This document shows, one piece after another, positions 12,814 to 50,818 of a stretch of DNA of 64,000 bases. Every line of letters starts with the position of its first letter. Position 1 is the first letter of the stretch. Source of the DNA: a virus; IMG/VR virus record IMGVR_UViG_3300021364_001752, positions 1 through 64,000 of that record. One strand, 5' to 3'. Made by a program: the position numbers and the translations under genes. The notes under the pieces were generated by a model that saw only the letters and a list, made by a program, of their open reading frames with translations, searched no databases and had not been told where the DNA came from.

Positions 12814-14565
12814 ATGGCAGTCGTTCAGATTTCGAGGATACAACTTAGAAGAGGTAGAGTAGGTGATAGCAGTCCTCCTATTCTTGCTTCTGGCGAAATG
12901 GGTTGGGCAATTGATACCCAGGAGTTGTTTATTGGTAATGGTGCTGTATCAGAAGGCGCACCCGAAGTTGGTAATACTAAAATCCTTACCGAACGAGATA
13001 ATCTATTTGACTTAATAGGCGAATACTCACTAGGTAAAAGCGGCGATACTTTTTCAGTTACCACAGGCATTTCCCCAGCACAACCTATACAACGTCCTTT
13101 ACAATCAAAGTTAGACGACTTTGTTACAGTAAGAGATTTTGGTGCAGATGGTGATGGAGACGACGGCGGCGGCATACAAAGAGCTATCTATGAATTGTTT
13201 CTAAATCAAAGAGCAGGTTTTGAAAATGTAGAACTACGCATACCTGCAGGAACCTATTTGTTATCTGCTCCTCTTTTTGTTCCTCCGGGAGCAAAGATCG
13301 TAGGCGATGGCAAAGGCGTTACAACTCTACAATTAGAAAATGGAATCAATACTCCTATTTTCCAAATGGTAAATTCCACATGGGATCCTAACACACAGCT
13401 ACAAGATACTACCACCGTAGATAACCAGTCAAAAAATGTTATAATCAAAGATATGTCTTTAGATAACACTACAAACTTTGGCGGTTGTATTTTGTTATCC
13501 AGCACTATAAACAGTGTGTTTGAAAATTTACATCTAACAACAGCACATGATTTTGCAATTGACGGATTATATACAGATGGTGTAACTGAATTGTCTATTA
13601 CCGATCAGGGCGGTATTAAATTTGATTACAATGCAGGCAACGCATACCCAAGTGAAAATAATAAGTTTATCAATATAGAATTTGAAAACATGGTTTATGG
13701 TGTTGATGCTCCAAAGAATGCTAACTATAATTTGTTTGAAGGATGTTCATTTAACAATGTAGGTTATGGGATAATGTTTGGTGAAGTAGACGGAGTATCT
13801 ACTAGAGTAATACCTACTGCGGATTATGCATTTGCACCAAAATACAACACAGTTACTAATAGTTATTTCAACGATGTAAGAAGAGAAGCATGGCGTATTT
13901 CCAAAGGACAATACAATAGAAGCAGCAGCAACACATTTTTACGTGTAGGAAATAATGGCGGTAGCAGCGCAGGAAATGCATGGCCAGTGCTTACTTTTGA
14001 TGATTTACATAACAAAAGTGATAATGACTATTTCCAAAGAACATTTGATCTAGCTCTTAATTATGATGTGTTTAATACTTCAGACGAAGATACCATTATT
14101 GATAACTTTGCTGACTATAATTATTATCCTGAGATATCAGGCAGTTTTGATTATGTTAATAGTTTTCCAATTGAAAAGGGCATCGGCAACAATGACTCTC
14201 CATTGCCCTCTGAAAGTAGTTTAGAAACATCATTTATGTATTTGCCAGCACCAGCATTCCAAGGTATTATACAGCTAGACTATACTTATAATGTTCAATT
14301 AGCATCAACACAATTAATACGCAACGGAAAAATTGAAATAATATATGACCAACGAGAAGGCAGTATTACACTAAGCGACGATTATGTTTTTGTAGGTGAC
14401 GAGTCAAGAGATGACTTGCTTACCTTTACTGCTAGTTATGCAAATGGCCGCAATGATGTTATCAGTATTAAGGTAGTAAACGAAACTTTGCTGGATGGCG
14501 AATCATATACAGATTTGTTTACTACAACCATTAGACAAAAATCAACTTATCTGCAGGCTCCGTAA
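12814..14565 (+). CDS. Tailspike / receptor-binding protein with pectate-lyase-3 fold
   Basis: A 583-aa protein. The N-terminus (VVQISRIQLRRGRVGDSSPP...GEMGWAIDTQELFIGNG) is the short phage-fibre attachment domain seen in many tail proteins. From about residue 103 the motif VRDFGADGDGDDGGGIQRAIYEL begins a right-handed beta-helix of the Pectate_lyase_3 type, with repeated N-x-F/I turns through about residue 420. Such spikes bind or cleave host surface polysaccharides at adsorption. The C-terminal 130 residues form a beta-rich cap. It has its own late promoter. Confidence 0.85.
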   Translation: MAVVQISRIQLRRGRVGDSSPPILASGEMGWAIDTQELFIGNGAVSEGAPEVGNTKILTERDNLFDLIGEYSLGKSGDTFSVTTGISPAQPIQRPLQSKLDDFVTVRDFGADGDGDDGGGIQRAIYELFLNQRAGFENVELRIPAGTYLLSAPLFVPPGAKIVGDGKGVTTLQLENGINTPIFQMVNSTWDPNTQLQDTTTVDNQSKNVIIKDMSLDNTTNFGGCILLSSTINSVFENLHLTTAHDFAIDGLYTDGVTELSITDQGGIKFDYNAGNAYPSENNKFINIEFENMVYGVDAPKNANYNLFEGCSFNNVGYGIMFGEVDGVSTRVIPTADYAFAPKYNTVTNSYFNDVRREAWRISKGQYNRSSSNTFLRVGNNGGSSAGNAWPVLTFDDLHNKSDNDYFQRTFDLALNYDVFNTSDEDTIIDNFADYNYYPEISGSFDYVNSFPIEKGIGNNDSPLPSESSLETSFMYLPAPAFQGIIQLDYTYNVQLASTQLIRNGKIEIIYDQREGSITLSDDYVFVGDESRDDLLTFTASYANGRNDVISIKVVNETLLDGESYTDLFTTTIRQKSTYLQAP

Positions 14566-25418: not shown

Positions 25419-25449
25419 TTGACCTCATTTACATAACATGTTATAAATA
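25419..25449 (+). promoter_or_regulatory. Dual promoter for the tmRNA locus
   Basis: TTGACC (25419-25424), 17-base spacer and TATAAA (25442-25447) form a sigma-70 promoter. The same -10 reads TATAAATA (25442-25449), the full T4 late consensus, so the tmRNA could be made early and late. A palindrome GCATATC-T-GATATGC lies just upstream (25394-25408). Confidence 0.7.
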
Positions 25450-25454
25450 GCTTT

Positions 25455-25516
25455 GTTAGCGTTGAAGCAACGTGGACACATACTGGACCCGGGTGCGATT
25501 CCCGGCAGCTCCACCA
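25455..25516 (+). ncRNA. ssrA: tmRNA acceptor piece (two-piece, permuted tmRNA)
   Basis: The 3' (tRNA-like) half of a circularly permuted tmRNA, placed upstream of the coding half as in alphaproteobacteria. It contains the T arm CCGGG-TGCGATT-CCCGG and ends CAGCTCCACCA at 25516. CAGCTCC pairs with the GGGGCTG that starts the coding piece at 25671, giving a 7-bp acceptor stem with a G-U wobble at pair 3, the alanine identity element. The CCA is encoded. The 5' end is estimated from the promoter. Confidence 0.88.
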
Positions 25517-25529
25517 TAAGGACACTATA

Positions 25530-25658
25530 ATGGCATTGATTTGGACAGGAATACAATACACAAGTTTAGCCGCACTACTGGGAATGTGTGTGACGAAATG
25601 GGTTATTGATTTCCGTGCTTGGAGAGCAGGCAGACAAAAGCCAAAATGCTGCGGATAG
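25530..25658 (+). CDS. 42-aa membrane peptide inside the tmRNA intervening segment
   Basis: ATG 25530 (AAGGA site seven bases upstream) to TAG 25658 lies wholly between the tmRNA acceptor and coding pieces. It encodes one hydrophobic segment (IQYTSLAALLGMCVTKWVI) followed by a basic tail ending KPKCCG. In permuted tmRNA precursors this segment is normally a short processed-out loop. An ORF with a proper ribosome site there is unusual. It may be chance, but length, ribosome site and membrane character argue for a real gene. Confidence 0.5.
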   Translation: MALIWTGIQYTSLAALLGMCVTKWVIDFRAWRAGRQKPKCCG

Positions 25659-25670
25659 TGTTTTTATGAT

Positions 25671-25865
25671 GGGGCTGATCAGGATCGACAGGTGTGAAAG
25701 TGAAGTGGAGTTAACCGGATGACTGCGTAATAAGTCAATCAAACTAGATGCAAACGATAATTTTGCACCATCTGAGTTCGCTCTAGCAGCGTAACCACAG
25801 GGGGTATGGGCTCCACCTAGCAACAGAACGGGCCTCCAAGATGAAACATAGGTTATAGCACATCT
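25671..25865 (+). ncRNA. ssrA: tmRNA coding piece (tag ANDNFAPSEFALAA)
   Basis: It starts GGGGCTGATC at 25671, which pairs with the acceptor piece upstream. The resume codon is GCA 25750 and the tag reads ANDNFAPSEFALAA, ending at TAA 25792. The AND start and ALAA end are typical for alphaproteobacterial tags recognised by Clp proteases. tmRNA rescues stalled ribosomes and marks the broken protein for degradation. The 3' end (about 25865) is estimated. The phage also encodes ClpS and ClpP. Confidence 0.9.
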
Positions 25866-25880
25866 GAAAGGAAACCCAAA

Positions 25881-27008
25881 ATGTTTAAAACAATCGCCGC
25901 ATCGATGATGCGGTTTTCAGCGTTAGCAGCGTTGGCATTGACTATTCTCACTCCATCACAAGCAGCAGCAGAAACCAAAGTAGGTTTTGTTTACGTAGGT
26001 CCAGTTGGCGACCTTGGTTGGACATACCGCCATGACATTGGACGTCAAGCTGTAGAACAAGCATACGGTGATGAAGTTTCTACTACCTACCTAGAAAACG
26101 TGCCAGAAGGTCCTGAAGCAGTTGAAGCAATTACTCAACTTGCAGAAGCTGGACACGATATTATCTTTACGACCTCTTTTGGATTCATGGATGCAACCAA
26201 CGAAGTTGCTTCTAGATATCCAGACATTGCATTTGAACATGCAACTGGTTATATTCGCGAAACTGAAAACATGGCTACCTTTGGAGCACGTTTTTATGAA
26301 GGGCGTGTTGTAGAAGGCATGCTTGCAGCGGAAATGACCAAAACCAACAAGATTGGTTACATCGCATCATTCCCTATTCCAGAAGTGGTGCGCGGTATCA
26401 ACGCATTTATGTTGGAAGCACAAAAGCACAATCCAGATGTTGAAGTTGACATTGTTTGGGTTTACACCTGGTTCAACCCAGCAGTTGAAGCATCAGCAGC
26501 ACAGGCATTGATTGATGAAGGTGCTGATATCATTGTGCAGCATACAGACTCGCCAGCGCCATTAAGTATTGCAGAAAAAGCTGGTGTATACGGATTCGGA
26601 CAAGCGTCAAACATGAGCCGCTTTGGTCCTAGTGCGCATCTTGTGAGTATTGTAGATGATTGGGATAGTTACTATGTTGACCGTGTAGGTGAAGTTATCA
26701 ACGGCACCTGGGAAGGCGGAGACACCTGGTGGGGTCTTACCAAAGACGGTCAAGGTGGCGAAAAGGGTATGGTAGCCCTTGAGAGCTACAATGTCGAAGT
26801 GCTTGGACAGGATCTAGTCGATCGTGCCATTGCACTTGAAGAGTCACTTGCTAATGGTGAGCGTCACGCATTTCCATGTGAAGGATTGTTTATGCAAGAC
26901 GGTTCGGTTCCAGAGGACTGTGCAAATGGCGAAGAGCATCTTACAGATGGAACTTTGCTTGGTATGAATTGGTATGTAAAAGGAATTGACGCATCCCTTC
27001 CAAACTAA
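25881..27008 (+). CDS. BMP-family periplasmic substrate-binding protein (nucleoside/purine-type)
   Basis: A 375-aa secreted protein with a signal peptide (about residues 1-30, ending PSQAAAE) and the BMP/Bmp-PnrA domain (VGFVYVGPVGDLGWTYRHDIG, FTTSFGFMDATNEVA, GFGQASNMSRFGPSAHLVSIVDDW). In alphaproteobacteria this family feeds ABC importers of purine nucleosides and related solutes. No permease or ATPase is encoded nearby, so it would have to work with host ABC components, raising or redirecting nucleoside uptake. It sits immediately after the tmRNA with a GAAAGGA site. Its GC-richer coding and close bacterial character suggest transfer from the host. GMP reductase at 34883 could use imported guanine compounds. 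Confidence 0.9.
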   Translation: MFKTIAASMMRFSALAALALTILTPSQAAAETKVGFVYVGPVGDLGWTYRHDIGRQAVEQAYGDEVSTTYLENVPEGPEAVEAITQLAEAGHDIIFTTSFGFMDATNEVASRYPDIAFEHATGYIRETENMATFGARFYEGRVVEGMLAAEMTKTNKIGYIASFPIPEVVRGINAFMLEAQKHNPDVEVDIVWVYTWFNPAVEASAAQALIDEGADIIVQHTDSPAPLSIAEKAGVYGFGQASNMSRFGPSAHLVSIVDDWDSYYVDRVGEVINGTWEGGDTWWGLTKDGQGGEKGMVALESYNVEVLGQDLVDRAIALEESLANGERHAFPCEGLFMQDGSVPEDCANGEEHLTDGTLLGMNWYVKGIDASLPN

Positions 27009-37405: not shown

Positions 37406-38096
37406 AACTGTATATTCAATAGGGTGCAGTCATACTAATGGCTGCATGATTGACGGTATAAACGGAACAAGTAAAGTTAATAAACAAAATAGCTTTGCAG
37501 GACAAATTGCAAAAAGGCTTAAAGCAACACATTATAATCTGTCTTTAAACGGCGCAAGTAACCAGTATATATTTCGCATAGCTAACCAAGTTGTAGCGCA
37601 GGTCACTGACTCTGATGACACATTGTTTATAATAGGGTGGACTAGTCCTACTAGATTAGAGTTAAGAGAAGATAATAAAATTTTTCCAGGCCATCCTGAG
37701 GGATATGACAATAACTATATTCCTTTTAGTGTTGGGGCTAATAAAGACAACTTTTCTAAAGAGTATAAAAGGCTATTAAATGATGCACCTGCATTGTGTA
37801 ATATAACAATGTTAATTGATCACTGGACTTGCTACATCATTGCACTTCAAAATTTATTTGCACAGCATAAAATAAGATATATAATGTGTAATACAATGCA
37901 GCCCATTGAGCAAACAAGCAATAATAGTGACATGATTAAAATGATAGATACATCAAATTATTATAAACCTTTTGATGTTGATGAAAGTTTTTATAATTGG
38001 GCAAACCTTAATTATGAAAGAACACCATGTCATCACTTCCCCTTAAAAGCACATAAAGATTTTGCTGTAAAAATTATGAAAGAGATGAAATTATGA
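37398..38096 (+). CDS. SGNH-like hydrolase domain protein
   Basis: A 232-aa protein. The chosen start is ATG 37398, overlapping the heme oxygenase stop; the upstream in-frame start would extend further into that gene. VYSIGCSHTNGCMI resembles block I of SGNH esterases/lipases with Ser or Cys as nucleophile position. Block II-like SLNGASNQYIFR and a terminal DESFYNWA...CHHFPLKAH, with a possible Asp...His pair, also fit. Substrate unknown. It lies between the two bilin-pathway genes and may be a later insertion. Confidence 0.65.
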   Translation: MVKTVYSIGCSHTNGCMIDGINGTSKVNKQNSFAGQIAKRLKATHYNLSLNGASNQYIFRIANQVVAQVTDSDDTLFIIGWTSPTRLELREDNKIFPGHPEGYDNNYIPFSVGANKDNFSKEYKRLLNDAPALCNITMLIDHWTCYIIALQNLFAQHKIRYIMCNTMQPIEQTSNNSDMIKMIDTSNYYKPFDVDESFYNWANLNYERTPCHHFPLKAHKDFAVKIMKEMKL

Positions 38097-38779
38097 GTGA
38101 AGTTTGGAATACACTGATTAAAATTCAAGATAGACTAATTGAACGTTTTGATGATACTGGCAAAGAAATAGAAGAACCAGGAATGAATAGATTCAATCAA
38201 CCAGGCTGGATTAATAGAGTTTGGAGCAGTGAAGCCTATCGTCGAGCTCACGTAGATGTTGTCGATGCAAGAGACACTAAAGGTCTATGGATGATGCATT
38301 GTTGTGTGTTTCCACACTTGCACAACGATGGTCCTATCTTTGGATTAGATGTTATTGCAGGTAAAAATAAAATTACAGGTTACTTTCATGATTACTCACC
38401 GACTAGCAATCCTGCAAATGAAATGATTGAGGCGTTTGGAGATGAAGTTGCAAAACTAGAATGGCGCAAACCTCGCGAGCTACCAGATTGGGCCAAAGCA
38501 ATATTTACAGAACATATGGTAGCAGCAGGAAATGTTAACAGCGAAGAAGAATTACAGCAGTTGCTTGATCTTAGTTTTGAAAGCATAGATAACTATCTAG
38601 AATACATTAGTGCATACAATAACGTAGCCAACGAGCAAGCAGGTAAAGATGCACAAAATCGCTATGCTCATTATCAAAAACAAAATCCGCATACGCCACG
38701 CACAATGACCAGTTTAGGACTTGATGAAGAAGATGTGCAAGTATTTGTGCAGGAGTGTCTTTTTCCCGACATTGAATAA
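38093..38779 (+). CDS. pcyX: Ferredoxin-dependent bilin reductase, PcyX/PebS-like
   Basis: A 228-aa protein with the FDBR fold signature: CCVFPHLHNDGPIFGLDVI (about residues 69-87), where PebS has LPCFGMDL, then YFHDYSPTSNP, and a C-terminal QVFVQECLFPDI like the PebS ending VNDFLFCYK. These enzymes reduce biliverdin to open-chain pigments. From memory, phage PcyX enzymes found beside hemO in marine metagenomes make phycoerythrobilin and form a clade near PcyA. The catalytic Asp/Asn near QNPHTPRTM appears to be Asn. The neighbouring heme oxygenase supports the call. Exact product is uncertain. Confidence 0.78.
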   Translation: MSEVWNTLIKIQDRLIERFDDTGKEIEEPGMNRFNQPGWINRVWSSEAYRRAHVDVVDARDTKGLWMMHCCVFPHLHNDGPIFGLDVIAGKNKITGYFHDYSPTSNPANEMIEAFGDEVAKLEWRKPRELPDWAKAIFTEHMVAAGNVNSEEELQQLLDLSFESIDNYLEYISAYNNVANEQAGKDAQNRYAHYQKQNPHTPRTMTSLGLDEEDVQVFVQECLFPDIE

Positions 38780-40594: not shown

Positions 40595-40600
40595 TATATG
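40588..40600 (+). promoter_or_regulatory. Late promoter abutting the start codon (leaderless arrangement)
   Basis: TAAATA (40588-40593), GTAT, ATG (40598). A GGAG lies upstream of the core (40583-40586), 11 bases from the ATG, so read-through RNA might still be translated normally, while late RNA would be leaderless. Confidence 0.68.
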
Positions 40601-41695: not shown

Positions 41696-41719
41696 GCAGT
41701 TATAAAAGAACTGTTTCGA

Positions 41720-41743
41720 TAAATATACATGGAGGGCCATGTA
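41720..41743 (+). promoter_or_regulatory. Late promoter within an RBS-hiding hairpin, upstream of csgF
   Basis: TAAATA (41720-41725) is followed by TACATGG (41726-41732), loop AGGG, and CCATGTA (41737-41743), whose last base is the A of the start codon. The Shine-Dalgarno GGAGGG is therefore in the stem-loop. Late transcripts should start near 41730 and cut off most of the left arm, freeing the site. Confidence 0.65.
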
Positions 41744-42225
41744 TGAAAAGAATAGCGAACATCGCCATGTTGCTGCCTATGTTTGTGTCACTGTCAGTGT
41801 CACATGCAGGAGCAGATCTAGTTCATCAGTTTAAAAATCCCAGTTTTAGTGGTATTGGGTATAGCACCCATGTTTTGAGTTTAGAACAATTACAATTTAA
41901 CAGAACAGAGGACATTGCAAAGGCAGCTGAAGCAGAAGAGCGTAGGCTAGAGCGCGAGCTAGAAAATTCAACATTAAACAAATTTATTAAAAATGTAGAG
42001 TCTCGCATATATGCAACATTGAGCAAGCAAATGGTAGACGCTATGTTTGAATCATGCACTGATGACACTGGGCTTACCTGTCCTACAAGCGGAACTACTG
42101 AAATTGAGGATAGCACCATTACTTGGAGCAAAGATACAACCACAGGAGAAATTACAATTGTTGTTGATGGTCCTGACGGTTATACTGAAATCAGCATACC
42201 GGGATCAGGGGAGTTTGCCTTTTGA
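41743..42225 (+). CDS. csgF: CsgF-like curli assembly protein
   Basis: A 160-aa exported protein with a signal peptide (residues 1-23, ending SVSHAG). The mature N-terminus ADLVHQFKNPSFSGIGYSTHVL matches the CsgF start (TFQFRNPNFGG) that plugs into the CsgG pore and forms its second constriction. A helical middle (about 55-105) and a beta-rich end (ITWSKDTTTGEITIVVDG) also fit CsgF, which links the pore to the fibre nucleator outside the cell. Two Cys (SCTDDTGLTC) may form a disulfide. It overlaps csgG by four bases, as an operon partner. Confidence 0.88.
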   Translation: MKRIANIAMLLPMFVSLSVSHAGADLVHQFKNPSFSGIGYSTHVLSLEQLQFNRTEDIAKAAEAEERRLERELENSTLNKFIKNVESRIYATLSKQMVDAMFESCTDDTGLTCPTSGTTEIEDSTITWSKDTTTGEITIVVDGPDGYTEISIPGSGEFAF

Positions 42226-43001
42226 AGTATTTAATGATACTTGGAATTTTATTTTTAACAGGTTGCACGGTGCCACAAAGCGTTCAAGAAGCAATGGATA
42301 GCGAACCTGAAGTCCAAGTAAATCCTATGCAAGCTGAGTTGAGAGCACTACCTGGACCAGATGGCGATCCAGTGCCAATAGGTGTTTACAGTTTTTCAGA
42401 CAAAACTGGACAGCGTAAGCCTGCTGACAGTGTAGCAAATCTAAGTTCAGCTGTTACACAAGGCGCAGAAGTATGGCTTATTGATGCACTACTGGAGGCA
42501 GGCGAAGGCGAATGGTTTAATGTTGTCGAGCGTGTTAGTTTAGACAACATTATAAGAGAAAGACAACTTATACGAAGCACAAGGGAAAATTATGATGATC
42601 CAAGTCCTTTAGAGCCAATGCTCTTCGCAGGAGTGGTTTTAGAAGGCGGAATTATAGGATATGACAGCAACCAGACCACAGGAGGGTATGGTGCAAGATA
42701 TTTTGGAATAGGCGCTGCTACTGAATACAGAGTAGATACTGTGACAGTTGGCATGCGTTTAGTGAGCGTTGGCACTGGAAGAGTGTTAATGAGCGTGGCA
42801 GCAGAGAAGACTATAGCTAGCCATAGGAGTGGGGCAGATGTTTTTAAGTTCTTAGACATGAGCACCAAGGCACTGGAAATAGAGAGCGGATACAGTGTCA
42901 ATGAGCCTACCAATTATGCTGTGAGGGCAGCAATAGAGGCAGGAGTAATAGAACTAATTTATGAAGGAAATCGAAAAGGTTTTTGGACATTTAAACAATG
43001 A
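42222..43001 (+). CDS. csgG: CsgG-like outer-membrane curli secretion pore
   Basis: A 259-aa lipoprotein: signal MKYLMILGILFLTGC with lipid Cys15. It aligns with E. coli CsgG along its length: VGSIIGYESN is VLEGGIIGYDSN here, GARYFGIGA is identical, and YSVNEPTNYAVRAAIEAGVIELI matches the C-terminus. CsgG forms a nonameric outer-membrane barrel that secretes curli subunits. In the constriction loop (KPADSVANLSSAV) the Asn is kept, but the position of Phe56 is Leu and Tyr51 has no clear match, so the channel may be wider or choose other cargo. It lies between csgF and two curlin-repeat genes. Confidence 0.93.
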   Translation: MKYLMILGILFLTGCTVPQSVQEAMDSEPEVQVNPMQAELRALPGPDGDPVPIGVYSFSDKTGQRKPADSVANLSSAVTQGAEVWLIDALLEAGEGEWFNVVERVSLDNIIRERQLIRSTRENYDDPSPLEPMLFAGVVLEGGIIGYDSNQTTGGYGARYFGIGAATEYRVDTVTVGMRLVSVGTGRVLMSVAAEKTIASHRSGADVFKFLDMSTKALEIESGYSVNEPTNYAVRAAIEAGVIELIYEGNRKGFWTFKQ

Positions 43002-43013
43002 GGGCAACGATAA

Positions 43014-43721
43014 ATGAAAAAAATAATATATGCCGCCTTATTTGGTCTTATTAGTTCGGTTGCATTAGCAAATGAAATTTATATCAGTCAAATAGGTGAC
43101 ACATTAGACTTAGACATTACCCAAAGCGGTGATAACAACAAAATAGGAACCAGTTTAGCCGATATGGTTATTCAAGGTGACGACATGACATTCAGTATTA
43201 CACAAACTGGAGATAGCAATACGATTGATGCAACTATAAAAGGAGCCAATTATACAGGCACATGGGATTTTACAGGAAGCAATAACGATGTTGATCTTTT
43301 ATGTAGTTCAACTACCGCAGGCAATTGTGATACTGTAACCCTTAACATAGATACCACTGGCGGATACAACAATTTCACATTTGCTATTGGCGAAACCGCT
43401 TCGGCTGACAGCAGTATTATTAACTTTACTGTGACAGGGGATAGTCAAGTATTTGATGTTACTGTAGATGGCGAAGCAATTGATGTAACAGTTGTAATTG
43501 ATGATGGCACAAGCGGTCTTACAAACACAGCGGGCAACACTAACAATTTAACAATTGATACAAGTGGCAATGGCGGAACCAACGGTAACACAGTTGACTT
43601 GAACATTACAGGTTCGGGTGGGACATACAACGTTACACAAACAGGAACGCTAATTGATCAGACCATTGATGCAACATTCAGTGGCGATGACGCAACAGTT
43701 GATATCACACAGAGCGACTGA
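43014..43721 (+). CDS. Curlin-repeat protein 1 (CsgA/CsgB-like)
   Basis: A 235-aa exported protein with a signal peptide (residues 1-20, ending VALANE). The mature part carries curlin-type repeats with Q-x-G-D-x-N spacing: ISQIGDTLDLDITQSGDNNK, FSITQTGDSNTIDATI, NVTQTGTLIDQTI, ending VDITQSD. Each predicts a strand-turn-strand unit of an amyloid beta-solenoid. It is longer than CsgA, with a Thr/Asp/Gly-rich middle. As the first gene after csgG it is the obvious cargo. Whether it forms amyloid cannot be told from sequence alone. Confidence 0.82.
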   Translation: MKKIIYAALFGLISSVALANEIYISQIGDTLDLDITQSGDNNKIGTSLADMVIQGDDMTFSITQTGDSNTIDATIKGANYTGTWDFTGSNNDVDLLCSSTTAGNCDTVTLNIDTTGGYNNFTFAIGETASADSSIINFTVTGDSQVFDVTVDGEAIDVTVVIDDGTSGLTNTAGNTNNLTIDTSGNGGTNGNTVDLNITGSGGTYNVTQTGTLIDQTIDATFSGDDATVDITQSD

Positions 43722-44812
43722 TGTGGAGATTGTTATTTGTGCTGCTGTTTTTTGCCAGCAGTGCTATAGCTCAAATAGGCGAAATCGCTGACATAGAAGG
43801 CAGCGGCATTGTTAAGCGTGACAGTGAAAAGATAAAAGGTGAACTGGGCATTGGTGTTCAAATGGCCGACAAAATTATTACGGCCAAAGGACGTATGCAA
43901 TTACACTTCTCTGACGAAACTCGTGTAGACGTAACTGAGCATAGTGCAATGGTGATCGATGAGTTTATATATGATCCTGCACAAGGCACAGGTGCATTAA
44001 AAATGCGAGCTACATTGGGTGCAGTAAGATATGCCAGCGGACAGATAGCCAAAACCAGCAGACAAAGAGTTAGTATCAGAACACCTAGTGCAACTATCGG
44101 TGTTCGCGGCACAGACTTTATAATGATTGTTGATGAAATAGGCGGCAGCATGGTTACCCTCTTACCTAGCTGTGATGACAGAGGCTTTTGTATGGTTGGT
44201 GAAATTACTGTAGAGAGCGATGCAGGTATTGTAATAATGAATCAAGCCTATCAAACAACAATAGTTAAACACAGTGCTGCTCCTCCTGCGCCACCTAAGA
44301 TATTAGACTTACCAGACGATCTTTTACGTGCAATGTTGATAGTAAGAAAGACTTCTCCTTACGATGAAATTAATGAAGAGGCTGTAGCTGCAACAGATAT
44401 TTTAAAATTTGATTTTCTAGCATTTGATGGTTTAGATGAGGATTTACTTAATGCAGATGAGCTATGGGTAACTGATTTAGACAATGAATCTTATTTAAAC
44501 CAAATGTTTGTAGATCAGTTAACCCAGGCACTGAAAGAATTGTTCGCATTACTTACAAGTCTATTGGATTTACAAGCAGAAGAATTTATGCGTATACAAG
44601 TATTTGGATACGATCCCGAAACTGGTATAACCTTAGAAGACCAGCCACCAAATTATGTATTCACACGAACAGAAAATACACACCATGTGAGATTAACATT
44701 GAATGAAAATTATGGTTATAATATTGATTTAATTCAAAACGATTTTTCAATATTTGATTACAGTATAGGAGTAGGAGCAAATGACATTTACATCAATCAG
44801 CAAGAAAATTAA
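43721..44812 (+). CDS. FecR-domain protein in the curli-type operon
   Basis: A 363-aa exported protein with a signal peptide (residues 1-17, ending SSAIA). A FecR domain spans about residues 45-160: DKIITAKGRMQLHFSDETRVDV, then VSIRTPSATIGVRGTDFIMIVDE, the hallmark TP-T/S-A-x-x-G-V-R-G-T. In bacteria such domains sit in the periplasm or at the surface as sensors or peptidoglycan/sugar-binding scaffolds. The remaining 200 residues are acidic and helical, then beta. It lies between the two curlin genes, overlapping the second by 32 bases, so a role as fibre anchor or assembly factor is likely. Confidence 0.8.
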   Translation: MWRLLFVLLFFASSAIAQIGEIADIEGSGIVKRDSEKIKGELGIGVQMADKIITAKGRMQLHFSDETRVDVTEHSAMVIDEFIYDPAQGTGALKMRATLGAVRYASGQIAKTSRQRVSIRTPSATIGVRGTDFIMIVDEIGGSMVTLLPSCDDRGFCMVGEITVESDAGIVIMNQAYQTTIVKHSAAPPAPPKILDLPDDLLRAMLIVRKTSPYDEINEEAVAATDILKFDFLAFDGLDEDLLNADELWVTDLDNESYLNQMFVDQLTQALKELFALLTSLLDLQAEEFMRIQVFGYDPETGITLEDQPPNYVFTRTENTHHVRLTLNENYGYNIDLIQNDFSIFDYSIGVGANDIYINQQEN

Positions 44813-45473
44813 ATTGCTGGTATTATTTGCAGCATTTCCTGCCCATGCTAACGAAATTTATATTACGCAAACCGGTGATAGCCTTGCCTTGCGTGTTGAG
44901 CAGCGAAGTGCAGACAATTATGTCAATCTAAGCAGCACTGGTAATACAAACGACATAAGCATTACACAAGGCATGCATTACGATGGCTCTACATATTGGG
45001 TAGACACAGACGAGACTGGTGGACACGAAGCATACTGGACCATTACTGGTGCAAACAATACCGTGTGGAGTAGTCAAACAGATGTCAACAGAGGTGGTGG
45101 TGGAGGATCTCCGCACCATTTGGCAAACATAGTAAATGGAGATTACAATACAATTGCACATACACAAATGGGAAAAGCAGGACACGATGGCTTTGTAGAA
45201 ATACAAGGTGACAACAATGATGTTACACTTTATCAGAGAGGTAATGGTGGTGCAAAGTGGGCAGATGTTGTGCTCAACGGTGATGGACATAGTGTAGACG
45301 TTAACCAAAGAGGAAGCCAAAGTGCTAATGCTACTGTAGATTTAACCAATAGTGGCGGTGCATATGATTTTATACTCACACAGAATGTTACTACTAGTGC
45401 TGATACATATAGTATAACTGGCATTTGCACAAACAGTGCAGGTTGCGCATTGTCTGTTGATCGCAACAACTAA
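44781..45473 (+). CDS. Curlin-repeat protein 2
   Basis: A 230-aa exported protein with a signal peptide (residues 1-23, ending FPAHAN). The mature start EIYITQTGDSLALRVEQRS parallels curlin protein 1 (EIYISQIGDTLDLDITQS), so the two arose by duplication or form a major/minor pair like CsgA/CsgB. Repeats continue (DISITQGMHYDG, VEIQGDNNDVTLYQRGNGG, VDVNQRGSQSANATV, FILTQNV). It is richer in aromatic and His residues than protein 1. The AGGAG site lies in the end of the FecR gene. Confidence 0.82.
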   Translation: MTFTSISKKIKLLVLFAAFPAHANEIYITQTGDSLALRVEQRSADNYVNLSSTGNTNDISITQGMHYDGSTYWVDTDETGGHEAYWTITGANNTVWSSQTDVNRGGGGGSPHHLANIVNGDYNTIAHTQMGKAGHDGFVEIQGDNNDVTLYQRGNGGAKWADVVLNGDGHSVDVNQRGSQSANATVDLTNSGGAYDFILTQNVTTSADTYSITGICTNSAGCALSVDRNN

Positions 45474-45476
45474 ATA
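45471..45476 (+). promoter_or_regulatory. Late promoter core
   Basis: AACTAAATATATG overlapping the stop of curlin protein 2; a GAGGGCATACA ribosome site follows before the 45493 ATG. Confidence 0.6.
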
Positions 45477-45492
45477 TATGTGAGGGCATACA

Positions 45493-45633
45493 ATGGGCGA
45501 AAGTATCATAGCATTCTTTGTAGCAGGATTTTTCACCGCATTTGGCTGGTGGGCTGCCGGCAAGGTTACCACACAGATTGACTCTCACATAGAGGAGCAG
45601 CACAATGGATCTAATTTGGGCACTGGCGATTAG
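45493..45633 (+). CDS. Small membrane peptide, 46 aa
   Basis: ATG 45493 with GAGGG seven bases upstream, to TAG 45633. One membrane segment (IIAFFVAGFFTAFGWWAAGKV) and an acidic tail. It overlaps the next gene by 29 bases and carries that gene's ribosome site (GAGGAG). Its build resembles a pinholin or small holin, as well as small accessory peptides. Confidence 0.62.
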   Translation: MGESIIAFFVAGFFTAFGWWAAGKVTTQIDSHIEEQHNGSNLGTGD

Positions 45634-45952
45634 CACACATCTAGGAATGGAAGGCGATTACAACAGCATTCATCCACACGTAAGGATAGAAGATGGAGGA
45701 GCAATAGCAGGAGCCTATTACAACAGCATGGACCGCATAAGTTTATATGCGGGGCACAGATTAGAATCGGGTAACGCAGGCTTAGAGTTTGCGTTGGTCA
45801 CAGGATACGATGAATGGATGCCCGTAGCACCATACATTAGAGGCACATATGACTTAGGCAATGTTAGAGCGTTTGCATCACCAACAGGGGAAGTATGGAA
45901 CGGCGAAACCAATATAGGCGTGGTTTTTGGAATTGAATACACGTTTAAATAG
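45605..45952 (+). CDS. Small beta-barrel-like protein, 115 aa
   Basis: Alternating strands with aromatic ends (AIAGAYYNSMDRISLYAGHRL, AGLEFALVTGYDEW, TNIGVVFGIEYTFK) and a C-terminal strand ending T-F-K, like a very small outer-membrane barrel or half-barrel. A weak N-terminal hydrophobic start (LIWALAISTHLG) is not a full signal peptide. Similar proteins occur in marine T4-like phages. Function unknown. Confidence 0.62.
   Translation: MDLIWALAISTHLGMEGDYNSIHPHVRIEDGGAIAGAYYNSMDRISLYAGHRLESGNAGLEFALVTGYDEWMPVAPYIRGTYDLGNVRAFASPTGEVWNGETNIGVVFGIEYTFK
45946..45951 (+). promoter_or_regulatory. Late promoter core
   Basis: TTTAAATAGT at the end of the 45605 gene, followed by a leader of about 60 bases containing GC-rich repeats and the AAGGAG site of the 46019 gene. 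Confidence 0.55.
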
Positions 45953-46018
45953 TATGTGGACCGCGGCGTGAGGGCGCAACCGGCATAACAAGAAGTCTTC
46001 AATCAAGGAGAACATTAA

Positions 46019-47518
46019 ATGAGGGCAATCAAAAATACGTTAGGCGGAGCCATTGTCGCCTCTTTATTATCAACAACAGCAATGGCACACACAAATTCAG
46101 TTGGTTATGTTGGTGACGGTAACGGAAACATTACTGTATGGTATGGTTCATGGCACGACGGCACAACATTTAACGAAGCAGAACTAAAAGTATTAGATTC
46201 TAATGATGCTAAAATTACACAAACACAGTTTAACTTACTGTCGCAGGATTCACCAGCAGGACTTATCTCAGGTGTAAACTACTTTGGTAGTGATGGTATA
46301 CAGTTGATTGATTATGATGTAAACACGGGTGGTGGCGAGTCATACACTTGGCAAGGTGCAACATTTACACTGGCACCAGGTGACTACACATTTGTATACA
46401 TTCCATTACAGGATGCAGAAAGCACACTATGTCCGGCTGGCACATCAGGATGCGGTCCAACACAAGACTGGGTTCCAATGGACGAAATTATTCGCAGTTT
46501 AAGTATTACACTTACACAAAATGATATCGATGGTGATGCTAACGCAAACGGAATCCTTGATACAACTGAAGTTGCTGTAGGTGATGCGGCGGCCGCGGCA
46601 AGTGGTCCAACAGTAGTAAGCCAGGGTTCAAGCACAGTAATTGGATATGTTGCGGCAAGCGGCGGCGTTATACAGATTGTTCAAAGAACAAGCACAACAA
46701 CTATGTGGAATAATATGAGTGACGGATCTATAGATGGACTACACACAATGGCTCCTGTTACACTCGATCCGTTCGAAGGACGCATTGATCAGGTGGATCA
46801 AATGTTAAATTTAAATTTACATAGAAGCACACCTATTGCAGATGGTATTCAAAGCGGACGTATCAGTCACGAAATGGGCGACGGATATGACGCAGATACA
46901 AGAACCTATAGTTTAGGACACACTGTATTCACAGAAGAAGGTATGAGTATACAAGGTGGAATAACAAAAGGATCAACTACCTTTACAGGAAGCGATAGCA
47001 CAGGATCAATGGAATCTATGATGTTGCAAGGAAGAGTAGGTAAAGCCTTAGATGATAGAGATATTACAATAGGCGTAGGTGCGCATGTGCATAACAGCGA
47101 TATTGAATATTCTAGAACAATAGGAGATTTCAGTGCTGCTGGTTCAACCAGTGCAAGTGACATCGGAGCTAACATTACTTTTGAAAAATCAACTGGTAAC
47201 GTTCGTCCTTTTGTAGGATATACAATTGGAAAGCAGTCAACAGATGCTTATGATGAGACAGGAGATGCACAAGTAGCTCTATCACGTGATGCAGCAGAAG
47301 AGACTTACAACTTTGCAACAATTGGTATCAACATTGATGCAGGAATGTTTACAGCAAATTTTGCTAGAGATTTCGACGATGTAGGAACTACCAGAATAGG
47401 GCTGGGCATTGATAAGCACATAAATGATAGAATATCTATAGGTGCAAGTGCTAATCGTTCTATGAGTGGTGACAACACAAGCACATACCTAAGTGCAGGA
47501 TTTAAAATTAAATTTTAA
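46019..47518 (+). CDS. Outer-membrane protein with autotransporter-like barrel
   Basis: A 499-aa exported protein with a signal peptide (residues 1-23, ending TTAMAH). The N-terminal 190 residues are a beta-sandwich-like domain (SVGYVGDGNGNITVWYGSWHDG). The middle holds an Ala-rich stretch, and the last 250 residues are barrel-like strands (SIQGGITKGSTTFTG, ARDFDDVGTTRIGLGIDKHI), ending SAGFKIKF with C-terminal Phe. An acidic DIDGDANANGILDTTE segment (about 174-189) looks like a calcium-binding dockerin/EF-type loop. It may work with the curli genes upstream as surface anchor, or replace a host porin. Confidence 0.75.
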   Translation: MRAIKNTLGGAIVASLLSTTAMAHTNSVGYVGDGNGNITVWYGSWHDGTTFNEAELKVLDSNDAKITQTQFNLLSQDSPAGLISGVNYFGSDGIQLIDYDVNTGGGESYTWQGATFTLAPGDYTFVYIPLQDAESTLCPAGTSGCGPTQDWVPMDEIIRSLSITLTQNDIDGDANANGILDTTEVAVGDAAAAASGPTVVSQGSSTVIGYVAASGGVIQIVQRTSTTTMWNNMSDGSIDGLHTMAPVTLDPFEGRIDQVDQMLNLNLHRSTPIADGIQSGRISHEMGDGYDADTRTYSLGHTVFTEEGMSIQGGITKGSTTFTGSDSTGSMESMMLQGRVGKALDDRDITIGVGAHVHNSDIEYSRTIGDFSAAGSTSASDIGANITFEKSTGNVRPFVGYTIGKQSTDAYDETGDAQVALSRDAAEETYNFATIGINIDAGMFTANFARDFDDVGTTRIGLGIDKHINDRISIGASANRSMSGDNTSTYLSAGFKIKF

Positions 47519-47564: not shown

Positions 47565-47960
47565 ATGAGAATAATAATTTTATTATGTATACTGGCGGGA
47601 CCAGTATGGGCTGACTCCAATCACGATAGCAAACTCTGCTTGGAGCGGTATGGGTATTCTGTAGAAAATTTTGATAGGTTTGACTGGAACAAAGCAGCAG
47701 CATGTGCAAGTAAACTAAGACAAAAACAAAATGCAGAAGAATTAGCAGAACTAAGAGACTTTCTCAAACATAATCCAAGATACAGAGTGCCAGGACAGAG
47801 TTTAAATCGTTGCTGGGGCAAGCCACGTGAAATGCCGTTTGAAAGTGTAACAGCAAGTGCCAGTGCAGATGGCAGTTGGCATGTGGGTGTAAATTATAAA
47901 GATAAACTGCCAGCAGGATGCTATGAAAATGCTCCGTGGGATAATAGGGACTCAAAATAA
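47565..47960 (+). CDS. Exported Cys-containing protein, 131 aa
   Basis: A signal peptide (residues 1-16, ending GPVWAD) and a mature domain with four Cys (SKLCLERY, AAACASKL, LNRCWGK, AGCYEN) likely forming disulfides in the periplasm. Not recognised. It is controlled by a hairpin/late-promoter switch, which argues that early expression is harmful, as for lysis or envelope proteins. Confidence 0.65.
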   Translation: MRIIILLCILAGPVWADSNHDSKLCLERYGYSVENFDRFDWNKAAACASKLRQKQNAEELAELRDFLKHNPRYRVPGQSLNRCWGKPREMPFESVTASASADGSWHVGVNYKDKLPAGCYENAPWDNRDSK

Positions 47961-48120: not shown

Positions 48121-50169
48121 ATGACCAAAAAAATTCTTCTGTCACCACTGTGGAGCGTTCTGCTTTTAGGCCTCTTAGCCTACGTGATATCGCTGTCGCC
48201 CAGCTTCCTGCAGAGCATCCAACTAAGATACTTCGACCAACTTATAATCAATCAACCAAAAGTTGAAAACAATATCTACACTGTAGACATTGACGAAGAT
48301 ACAATCAACGCATATGGACAATGGCCATTTCCAAGGGGCGATTATGCAATGCTTATTGATGATCTTTATGCTAGGGGTGCAGGTTTGGTTGTGTTCAATG
48401 TTTTAATGAGTGAGCCTGATAGGTCTGGTCAGGACGATATACTTGCAGATACAATGGAACAGTTTCCTGTTATTTTAACCATGCTAGGAGCAGCAGAAGG
48501 TAAAAATGAACCTATCAATCCAGGTGCAACCATTGTTAACAGTGACTTCTTACACACAATTCCCAGTGTTCCAGGCATAATTGCCAATGTGCCTGAAATT
48601 GAAAATGTAGCAGTTGGAAGTGGAATAATCAACTCATGGGCAGAAATAGACGGCGTTACTAGACGCATACCACTGGTTGTTATGGCTGATGGCACATTGT
48701 ATCCTAATGTAACAATGGAAGTGTTACGTGTGTTAGCAGGTGATCCCTCGTTCCAAATCAAACTAAATGCACTAGGTGTAGACAAACTACGCATACCACA
48801 GTTTGGCTTTTTACAAACAAATCCAGATGGTGAAGTATGGATTGACTGGAGTCAAGGATATAAACGTTATAGTGCAGTAGACTTGCCAGACGACTTTGCG
48901 GGTGGTATTGTATTTGTAGGTCCAACAGCAGCTGGTGTAACACAACCTATAGCTACTGCAATGGGCAGTGTATTTCCGCATCAAATACAAGCAGCATTGC
49001 TTGGCACAGTTTTTAACGAATCAAACATAAGCAGACATCCTGACGCAGAAGCATGGGGCGAATTAGCCGCCTTTGTTGTTGCAGGCTTGCTGTTAATCGC
49101 ACTCGCCCGATGGACATATGTTGGCATAGCCTTTTACATTATGTCAGTAGGCGGCTTTATTGGAGTTAGTATATATGTATTTAATACGCAAAACATTCTT
49201 ATTGATGGCGCTACTATCAGTGCTTTCCTCTTGCTCGTGGGCCTTCAACGATACGTGCTCAAGTTCATCGACGAGTTCTTGCAAAAGCAAGCCATTAAAA
49301 AACAATTCGAAGGATACGCCAGCCCAGCAGTTGTTAAATTACTACAACAATCTCCAGAGCTTGTTAAGCAGGGTATAAAGAAAGATGTAAGCATCGTGTT
49401 CTCAGACTTACGTGGCTTTACACCATTAGGTGAAAGTTTTGGTGATGATGTGCAAGGACTTACAAGAATAATGAATGGCTATATGGATGCCATTACACAA
49501 CCTGTGCTAGACGCAGACGGGATGATTATAAAATATATTGGTGATGCAAGTATGCATATACACAACGCACCTATAGACGATGCTAACCACGCTAGAACAG
49601 CAGTGCAGTGTGGCTTAGACATGTTAAGAGCAGTGGAGAAATTCAATGACGAAGTTATTATTCCAGAAGGTCGCCCTCCTGTTGGGATGGGTGCTGGGAT
49701 TAATACTGGCCTTGGCTACATTGGCGAAATGGGCAGTAGTAAGCGGCATAGTTACGATGTGCTTGGAGACGCCGTCTCAACGGCTGCTAGGGTTGAATCT
49801 AAATGTAAAGAATACGGTTGTTTGTTATTGGTGGGAGAAGCCACCTATGAAGCAACTAAGGATGATTTCTTCTATTTAAAAATTGACGACTTGCAAGTTA
49901 AAGGCAAAAGTGTAGGATTAGGCATTTATACAGTTTTAGACGACACAAAGGCACACTTTACAGTTAGCAAAAAGTATCACGATCAAATGCACAAACAATA
50001 TAGAGATCAAGACTTTGACGGTGCTATAGAAACAATAAAGAAAATATACAGTGGATTTGATGGCAGGATGCAAGGGTATTATGATATGTGGATAGAACGT
50101 TGTGAGTATATGAAGAAGCAAGAATTGCCTTCAAATTGGAATGGCACATTTATAGCAACGTCTAAATAG
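48121..50169 (+). CDS. CHASE2-domain class III adenylate cyclase
   Basis: A 682-aa membrane enzyme. An N-terminal membrane helix (about 8-28) leads to a CHASE2 sensor domain outside the inner membrane (about 30-300; VDIDEDTINAYGQWPFPRG is typical). Three membrane helices follow (about 305-385), then a cytoplasmic cyclase domain (about 420-600): metal Asp in FSDLRGFT, K-Y-I-G-D for adenine recognition, and YDVLGDAVSTAARVE for the transition state (Ser where Asn is usual). The K/D pair predicts ATP as substrate, giving cAMP. The late promoter and the neighbouring envelope genes suggest signalling tied to the envelope state. A phage-borne receptor cyclase is very unusual. Confidence 0.9.
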   Translation: MTKKILLSPLWSVLLLGLLAYVISLSPSFLQSIQLRYFDQLIINQPKVENNIYTVDIDEDTINAYGQWPFPRGDYAMLIDDLYARGAGLVVFNVLMSEPDRSGQDDILADTMEQFPVILTMLGAAEGKNEPINPGATIVNSDFLHTIPSVPGIIANVPEIENVAVGSGIINSWAEIDGVTRRIPLVVMADGTLYPNVTMEVLRVLAGDPSFQIKLNALGVDKLRIPQFGFLQTNPDGEVWIDWSQGYKRYSAVDLPDDFAGGIVFVGPTAAGVTQPIATAMGSVFPHQIQAALLGTVFNESNISRHPDAEAWGELAAFVVAGLLLIALARWTYVGIAFYIMSVGGFIGVSIYVFNTQNILIDGATISAFLLLVGLQRYVLKFIDEFLQKQAIKKQFEGYASPAVVKLLQQSPELVKQGIKKDVSIVFSDLRGFTPLGESFGDDVQGLTRIMNGYMDAITQPVLDADGMIIKYIGDASMHIHNAPIDDANHARTAVQCGLDMLRAVEKFNDEVIIPEGRPPVGMGAGINTGLGYIGEMGSSKRHSYDVLGDAVSTAARVESKCKEYGCLLLVGEATYEATKDDFFYLKIDDLQVKGKSVGLGIYTVLDDTKAHFTVSKKYHDQMHKQYRDQDFDGAIETIKKIYSGFDGRMQGYYDMWIERCEYMKKQELPSNWNGTFIATSK

Positions 50170-50176
50170 TATTATG
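50163..50176 (+). promoter_or_regulatory. Late promoter five bases from the start codon
   Basis: TAAATA (50163-50168), GTATT, ATG (50174). No ribosome-binding sequence; nearly the same leaderless geometry as the four-base group. Confidence 0.65.
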
Positions 50177-50818
50177 CTGAACTACATAAGAAATTTATTC
50201 GGTAATCATACCGAAGAAAAACGCACTACAGATGATATAAATGTTATATGGCTACATGGCGCAAATCAGTCAAGTCTAAGTTTCAAATATCTACAAACCA
50301 AAACACAATTTTCAAATGAAATATTGCCTAACTATAGCAGTATGAATCGCTTCTATGATAATCTTGAAATGATTGCAGATTCATGCCAAGGCAAAGGTCC
50401 TCATTTTGTTATAGGTCATTCTATGGGCGGTCTATATGCACTGCATTTAACTAGATATGTTAGGGTAATTGGAGGAGTAAGCATAGGAACTCCCTTTGCA
50501 GGCAGTAGCACAGCAGATTGGGCAAAATATATAGTGCCAAACTATCAATTGTTTAGAGACATAGGACGTAAAAGCGACCCTGTAAAAGAATCACAACAAA
50601 TAGAATTAGAAATACCTTGGACTCAGATAGTAAGCACTCACGGAAGCGTTCCTTATCACGGTGGACCAAATGATGGTGTAGTGACAATTGCTAGCATGAA
50701 GTATAGAAAAGATATGAAAATTATTGAAGTTCCACATACACACCATGAAGTTATGGTTAGTGATAAAGTAGGCGAAATAATTTTAGATTCTTACAACGCT
50801 ATTGTAAATCCTTCTTGA
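50174..50818 (+). CDS. Alpha/beta hydrolase (lipase/esterase-like)
   Basis: A 214-aa protein with the nucleophile elbow GHSMGGLY (Ser about residue 77) preceded by a strand (GPHFVIGHS). A possible Asp lies in HGGPNDGVV and a His in PHTHHEVM, so the triad seems complete. No signal peptide. Distinct in family from the class 3 lipase at 1788. Likely an esterase acting on lipids or acylated sugars late in infection. It ends in 20 bases of overlap with the convergent minus-strand gene. Confidence 0.75.
   Translation: MLNYIRNLFGNHTEEKRTTDDINVIWLHGANQSSLSFKYLQTKTQFSNEILPNYSSMNRFYDNLEMIADSCQGKGPHFVIGHSMGGLYALHLTRYVRVIGGVSIGTPFAGSSTADWAKYIVPNYQLFRDIGRKSDPVKESQQIELEIPWTQIVSTHGSVPYHGGPNDGVVTIASMKYRKDMKIIEVPHTHHEVMVSDKVGEIILDSYNAIVNPS

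Follow-up and report, generated by a model that had tools for sequence, protein, structure and literature searches.

A phage-coded curli-type secretion operon with its own curlin cargo and a FecR-domain protein as probable fibre accessory

In this study, a stretch of 64,000 nucleotides from a marine phage (positions 1 to 64,000 of the IMG/VR record IMGVR_UViG_3300021364_001752, which is 80,455 bases long; hereafter the window) was analysed, with a focus on a group of genes for CsgF, CsgG, two curlin-repeat proteins, a FecR-domain protein and a CHASE2-domain adenylate cyclase. The sequence comparisons give good support to a curli-type secretion system that is encoded by the phage together with its own cargo, and we regard it as fairly likely that these genes make up a complete curli-type (type VIII) secretion operon in which the FecR-domain protein is an accessory of the fibre. 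An earlier note, made from the letters of the window alone, took this to be more than the isolated csgG and csgF genes of some marine phages, and in this it was overtaken by the literature: csgF and csgG were described with unidentified partners by Zaragoza-Solas 2020 (PMC7029224), the curlin cargo, FecR and adenylate cyclase were identified in podophages and myophages by Wittmers 2022 (PMC9599517), and in the GenBank record of the Methylophilales phage Melnitz two proteins are annotated as curlin-repeat and one as FecR. The system is thus already described; the window adds a new member to it and several details for which no report was found, the most useful being the probable curlin-like tail of the FecR protein and a cellular six-gene operon. 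The core features are as follows.

41719 to 41725, plus strand: ATAAATA, a motif like the T4-type late promoter, just 5' of csgF (a match to the consensus only).
41743 to 42225, plus strand: csgF, exported, with the CsgG-binding N-terminal segment kept (PF10614, E 1.4e-12, 48.3 bits, full length).
42222 to 43001, plus strand: csgG, outer-membrane lipoprotein pore with a TTG start (PF03783, E 2.3e-51; CsgG in PDB, E 8e-51).
43014 to 43721, plus strand: curlin-repeat protein 1, degenerate, with a signal peptide and the end ...VDITQSD (PF07012, 22.9 bits against a cut-off of 20.7).
43721 to 44812, plus strand: exported FecR-domain protein, with the FecR domain at about 51-144 (PF04773, 36.6 bits against a cut-off of 24).
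44781 to 45473, plus strand: curlin-repeat protein 2, overlapping the FecR gene by 32 nt (PF07012, 31.5 bits, E 1.8e-7).
48121 to 50169, plus strand: CHASE2-domain class III adenylate cyclase, the last core gene (CHASE2, E 2e-36; cyclase, E 1.5e-17).

The first five genes form a tight run (41743-45473) with overlaps of 4, 1 and 32 nt, the first of them between csgF and csgG, and a largest gap of 12 nt. The earlier note had read this run as csgF, csgG, two curlin-repeat genes and a FecR gene and had proposed a family check, and both are borne out, with all five proteins above the curated Pfam cut-offs. Its limit of the module, 47518, was set too early, as the CHASE2-adenylate cyclase is also part of it. 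Every exported product of the run carries a signal peptide, and CsgG has the lipobox LTGC. Phage CsgG can be aligned with Escherichia coli CsgG over almost the full length, while the N-terminal segment of CsgF is conserved as F..P.F.G.GYS, though a sequence search of CsgF against PDB gave no real match. Both curlin-repeat proteins exceed the PF07012 cut-off behind their signal peptides. The assignment of the first rests on this match together with its conservation across an alignment of 41 rows, and its AlphaFold2 model is almost all-beta with a predicted local distance difference test (pLDDT) score of 85. In the second, the published curlin kernel N-x-Psi-x-Psi-x-Q, which recurs in repeats of 23 residues (PMC10192328), was observed three times against a shuffle mean of 0.07. 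Among relatives, a PA14 domain was noticed in the second curlin of HTVC008M and, at the N-terminus, in those of L049 (12854-14143), L064 (5265-6548) and L082 (10638-11960), and a different N-terminal domain in those of L034, L053 and L062. The PA14 domains point to adhesion and would suit a fibre that carries an adhesive head.

A survey of 80 IMG/VR loci and cultured phages was reduced to 54 distinct csgG loci, in which gene presence was counted only where the contig was long enough; as the loci were gathered by similarity to the CsgG of the window, more distant phages are under-sampled. The gene order is maintained across the 54 loci, and the parts were present in nearly every case: csgF in 54/54, curlin in 47/47, FecR in 40/40, the second curlin in 33/34 and the cyclase in 25/26. 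Not one of these loci, where the contig sufficed, held the pore without cargo. Thus, the co-occurrence of cargo genes with csgG and csgF in related phages, for which the earlier note had suggested such a survey, is established, and conservation in dozens of phages supports a function of the module. In tblastn searches of annotated phage genomes, the FecR protein, the cyclase and curlin 2 matched HTVC008M and four Melnitz isolates, and CsgG additionally matched a record of 1.5 kb that bears the name of a Salmonella phage. The proteins of the window are about 32-57% identical to those of the cultured phages. HTVC008M, other pelagimyophages and HTVC023P-type podophages share csgF, csgG, curlin, FecR, curlin and adenylate cyclase in the same order (PMC7029224, PMC9599517). 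The window differs from them in having three variable genes between curlin 2 and the cyclase and in that no histidine kinase was recognised upstream, where the next gene, at 40598, is without a family match. For Melnitz, these six genes are likewise annotated in GenBank in this order, whereas Buchholz 2022 argued that this phage lacks csgA and csgB and proposed a lysis pore (PMC9004378); the reading given here provides that pore with its cargo. Compared with the enterobacterial csgBAC-csgDEFG system, which shares the CsgG pore, CsgF and curlin-repeat cargo, the window shows no match to CsgE, CsgC and CsgD were not seen, the FecR protein and cyclase are added, and F56 of CsgG is replaced by Leu.

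The FecR-domain protein is the part for which this study offers the most new detail. Its FecR domain was found in all 38 aligned members (PF04773), and its sole hydrophobic segment is the N-terminal signal peptide, so that neither a cytoplasmic anti-sigma domain nor a transmembrane anchor is present; nor was a region-4 sigma factor (PF08281) found in the 80-kb record. The AlphaFold model, with a mean pLDDT of 74 against 60-64 for the other four models, displays an N-terminal FecR domain, which Foldseek places with FecR/PupR-type signalling domains, a middle part of low confidence and, at 296-360, a C-terminal domain of six to seven strands that is modelled with confidence. This all-strand domain ends in the curlin kernel NDIYINQ. 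Across 42/42 distinct phage proteins, the last strands read x-Psi-x-Psi-x-Q, mostly with Tyr before it, followed after 14-16 residues by [N/S]-x-Psi-x-Psi-x-Q near the end. The strict kernel with N occurs in the last 25 residues of 37 of the 42 proteins, and in all of them if S is allowed for N, as against 0/844 other phage open reading frames and 3/80 bacterial FecR proteins not linked to csg genes; the 42 proteins share ancestry, so these counts are not independent, and the kernel was spotted before being tested. The two tail kernels lie about 21-23 residues apart, compared with the curlin repeat period of 23. The C-terminus is therefore probably a curlin-like tail, and an exported FecR protein of this form appears in no earlier report that we found. 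It shares the periplasmic FecR fold with the anti-sigma regulators FecR and PupR, but it differs from them in lacking the anti-sigma domain, transmembrane helix and sigma partner and in having an extra C-terminal domain. The signal peptide, the lack of an anti-sigma part and of a sigma partner in the record, and the curlin-kernel end suit a protein associated with the fibre better than an iron regulator. The nearest NCBIfam names, all of them weak matches, are leptospiral surface FecR-domain proteins, one of them an adhesin.

Several observations weigh against the fibre-secretion reading as a whole. The constriction of CsgG is changed, with F56 replaced by Leu in 56/58 phage sequences and Y51 mostly by Ser, Ala or Asn, though the position of Y51 is less sure as the loop length varies; the phage eyelet should be less aromatic and is perhaps wider, an alteration for which no earlier report was found. 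CsgE (PF10627) was unmatched in the 80,455-base record, which is possibly incomplete, and no cyclic AMP (cAMP)-binding protein was found in it, so that cAMP, if it has an effect, would have to work through proteins of the host. Melnitz infection proceeded without clumping under the culture conditions used (PMC9004378), and one of three cellular csg-linked FecR proteins is without the tail kernel. By hhalign, the tail is only weakly similar to the curlins (E about 1e-3); this comparison was not used as proof, because it is weak and an N-terminal FecR segment (alignment columns 40-100) also scored 0.006 against curlins. PF07012 was reached by one of 38 FecR members (E 0.039), and the tail gave no significant match in Pfam or PDB.

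The weak hhalign score lends some weight to the view, which we hold to be possible at about one chance in four, that the tail kernel results from overlap with the start of the next gene, or from a general beta-strand bias, and is unrelated to curlins, the more so as the conserved Asn codon in the window contains the ATG of that gene. The kernel is, however, retained in eight distinct loci where the next gene does not overlap, it does not show up in shuffles and background reading frames, and its spacing to the second kernel is fixed at one period. An equally doubtful account, following Wittmers 2022, makes the FecR protein a regulator, which would respond to iron or to the state of export and, together with the cyclase, govern how the module is transcribed. 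The FecR-fold domain, the constant place of the gene in the operon, and the pairing of FecR with a CHASE2 kinase in a Burkholderia biofilm operon (PMC5192318) agree with it; the missing anti-sigma domain, anchor and region-4 sigma factor and the promoter-like motif of T4 late type do not, and the conserved curlin-like end is left unexplained. A role of the FecR domain as ligand of CHASE2 is compatible with the fibre-accessory reading that we favour. No more probable than these two is a bolder scheme, in which the FecR protein serves as an adaptor resembling a curli subunit, its tail capping or nucleating the fibre and its FecR domain showing the state of secretion to the CHASE2 cyclase, the whole fibre-to-cAMP circuit having been taken from a rare cellular curli lineage.

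With respect to the cyclase itself, both metal-binding Asp residues and the Lys and Arg are intact in 37/37 phage sequences, whereas the second base-specifying position is Asp and the transition-state Asn is replaced by Ser in 32/37 each. In HTVC008M and a few others, this slot is taken by a cyclase of a clearly different lineage; two divergent lineages of CHASE2-cyclase thus occupy one slot of the module (compared among the window, L061, L064, L069, L078 and L082), which suggests replacement within it. In Pelagibacteraceae (L115-L138), SAR11 bacteria have a FecR-domain gene of their own, unlinked to csg genes, and in many of them a cyclase-like gene lies about 3.4 kb upstream.

It is rather improbable that CsgG and CsgF were repurposed without cargo, as an uptake channel or a pinholin-like timer of lysis with the curlin and FecR genes as remnants. 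A pore of this type was put forward for Melnitz (PMC9004378), and the altered eyelet residues in nearly all phages, as well as the lack of CsgE in the record, are in keeping with it. The cargo and FecR genes, on the other hand, are intact, conserved and beside the pore wherever they could be counted, and this constancy speaks against a role in release alone or as a pore alone; moreover, the conserved N-terminal segment of CsgF is the one that binds inside CsgG in E. coli, and the inner membrane is not depolarised by an outer-membrane pore. That the repeat proteins are virion fibre or decoration proteins merely resembling curlins is very improbable, in view of their signal peptides, strict linkage to csgG and csgF and homologues in a cellular curli operon, even though beta-solenoids are frequent among phage tail spikes and gave weak matches.

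The cellular relatives shed light on the origin of the module. FecR and the cyclase are absent from 24 of the 27 alphaproteobacterial curli loci sampled, while three Caulobacterales loci (L177, L178, L222) hold csgF, csgG, curlin cargo, fecR and the CHASE2-cyclase; L177 and L178 differ from the phage module in having both curlins ahead of fecR. Genome matches L084-L087 and L094 were left out, since their closeness to the phage genes suggests phage contigs that had been binned with bacteria. In the CsgG tree, rooted on E. coli, the phages form a single clade (99/93), and phages together with the three Caulobacterales are split from the 24 ordinary alphaproteobacterial operons and E. coli (99/90). 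The cellular FecR proteins end in VINVTQD or IINVTQD in two of the three loci. Because this rare six-gene operon groups with the phage pores, the full gene set probably predates its capture by phages; no earlier report of this grouping was found. The published statement that FecR and cyclase do not occur in bacterial curli operons (PMC9599517) fits the 24 loci but is contradicted by the three.

Regarding expression, the motif ATAAATA has 13 coding-strand copies against one on the other strand, and 11 of the 13 sit within 80 bp upstream of gene starts, where about one is expected; the form ATAAATAC alone, unlike the shorter motif, showed no enrichment. The module is probably expressed late in infection. 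The claim that all its genes lie under late promoters holds as far as this bias and enrichment go, but only single motifs are found, one each before csgF, 47565 and the cyclase. The sequence shows what the infected cell would gain: the CsgG outer-membrane pore, CsgF, two curlin-repeat proteins and a FecR-domain protein, all three exported, and a cyclase of the inner membrane whose CHASE2 sensor faces the periplasm. On the fibre-accessory reading, the curlins would be exported by CsgG/CsgF and then assemble at the surface into an amyloid-type beta-solenoid fibre, and the FecR protein would act as a periplasmic or exported accessory of that fibre rather than as an iron-responsive anti-sigma factor, with its curlin-like strands docking on a curlin end as nucleator, cap or tether. 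More tentatively, the FecR domain could be the partner read by the CHASE2 sensor, cAMP then reporting on secretion.

The gene content between curlin 2 and the cyclase varies among loci, and the neighbours of the core in the window are as follows.

45605 to 45952, plus strand: small protein with similarity to a PagP PHROG over the C-terminal part of the latter (phrog_3600, E 2.6e-10; relatives in 24/84 loci).
46019 to 47518, plus strand: exported protein, probable outer-membrane barrel with the C-terminus ...FKIKF (relatives in 16/84 loci).
47565 to 47960, plus strand: small exported protein, a variable passenger.
50174 to 50818, plus strand: alpha/beta hydrolase-like protein, which in some relatives also comes after the cyclase (Abhydrolase_6, E 1.6e-5, slightly short of the cut-off; relatives in 9/84 loci).

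The first two had been read as surface-barrel proteins. Both genes exist, but a family match, and a partial one to PagP, was obtained for the first only, the second having none in Pfam, NCBIfam or PDB, and they are variable neighbours rather than core genes. A candidate membrane peptide of 46 amino acids (MGESIIAFFVAGFF..., 45494-45634) lies between curlin 2 and the PagP-like gene and overlaps the start of the latter. Elsewhere in the window, we observed a permuted two-piece transfer-messenger RNA (tmRNA) of alphaproteobacterial type (25423-25885, tag ANDNFAPSEFALAA), similar to that of Melnitz, which also carries a phage tmRNA; directly after it, the substrate protein of a PnrA-like nucleoside-binding ABC transporter (25881-27008, PF02608, E 4e-52); a tail protein with Mtd_N and pectate-lyase-like parts, probably a receptor-binding or depolymerase fibre (12814-14565); and a ferredoxin-dependent bilin reductase (38093-38779, PF05996, E 9e-18) that shortly precedes a radical SAM gene and the curli operon. 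No glutamine riboswitch was found at Rfam's threshold.

As to what the module is for, the likeliest benefit would be an altered cell surface late in infection, through aggregation or shielding; aggregation ('sibling capture'), defence against superinfection or import were discussed by Wittmers 2022 (PMC9599517), and release, clumping or exclusion of other phages as its purpose is speculation. For the least understood gene of the module, the FecR tail suggests a physical role that is open to experiment, and the cellular six-gene operon would allow these parts to be studied outside viruses. If an amyloid fibre is indeed displayed on hosts late in infection, it would be a rare case of a virus-built extracellular structure on a bacterial cell and would matter for aggregation, for superinfection and for the marine flow of carbon, the hosts being abundant ocean bacteria.

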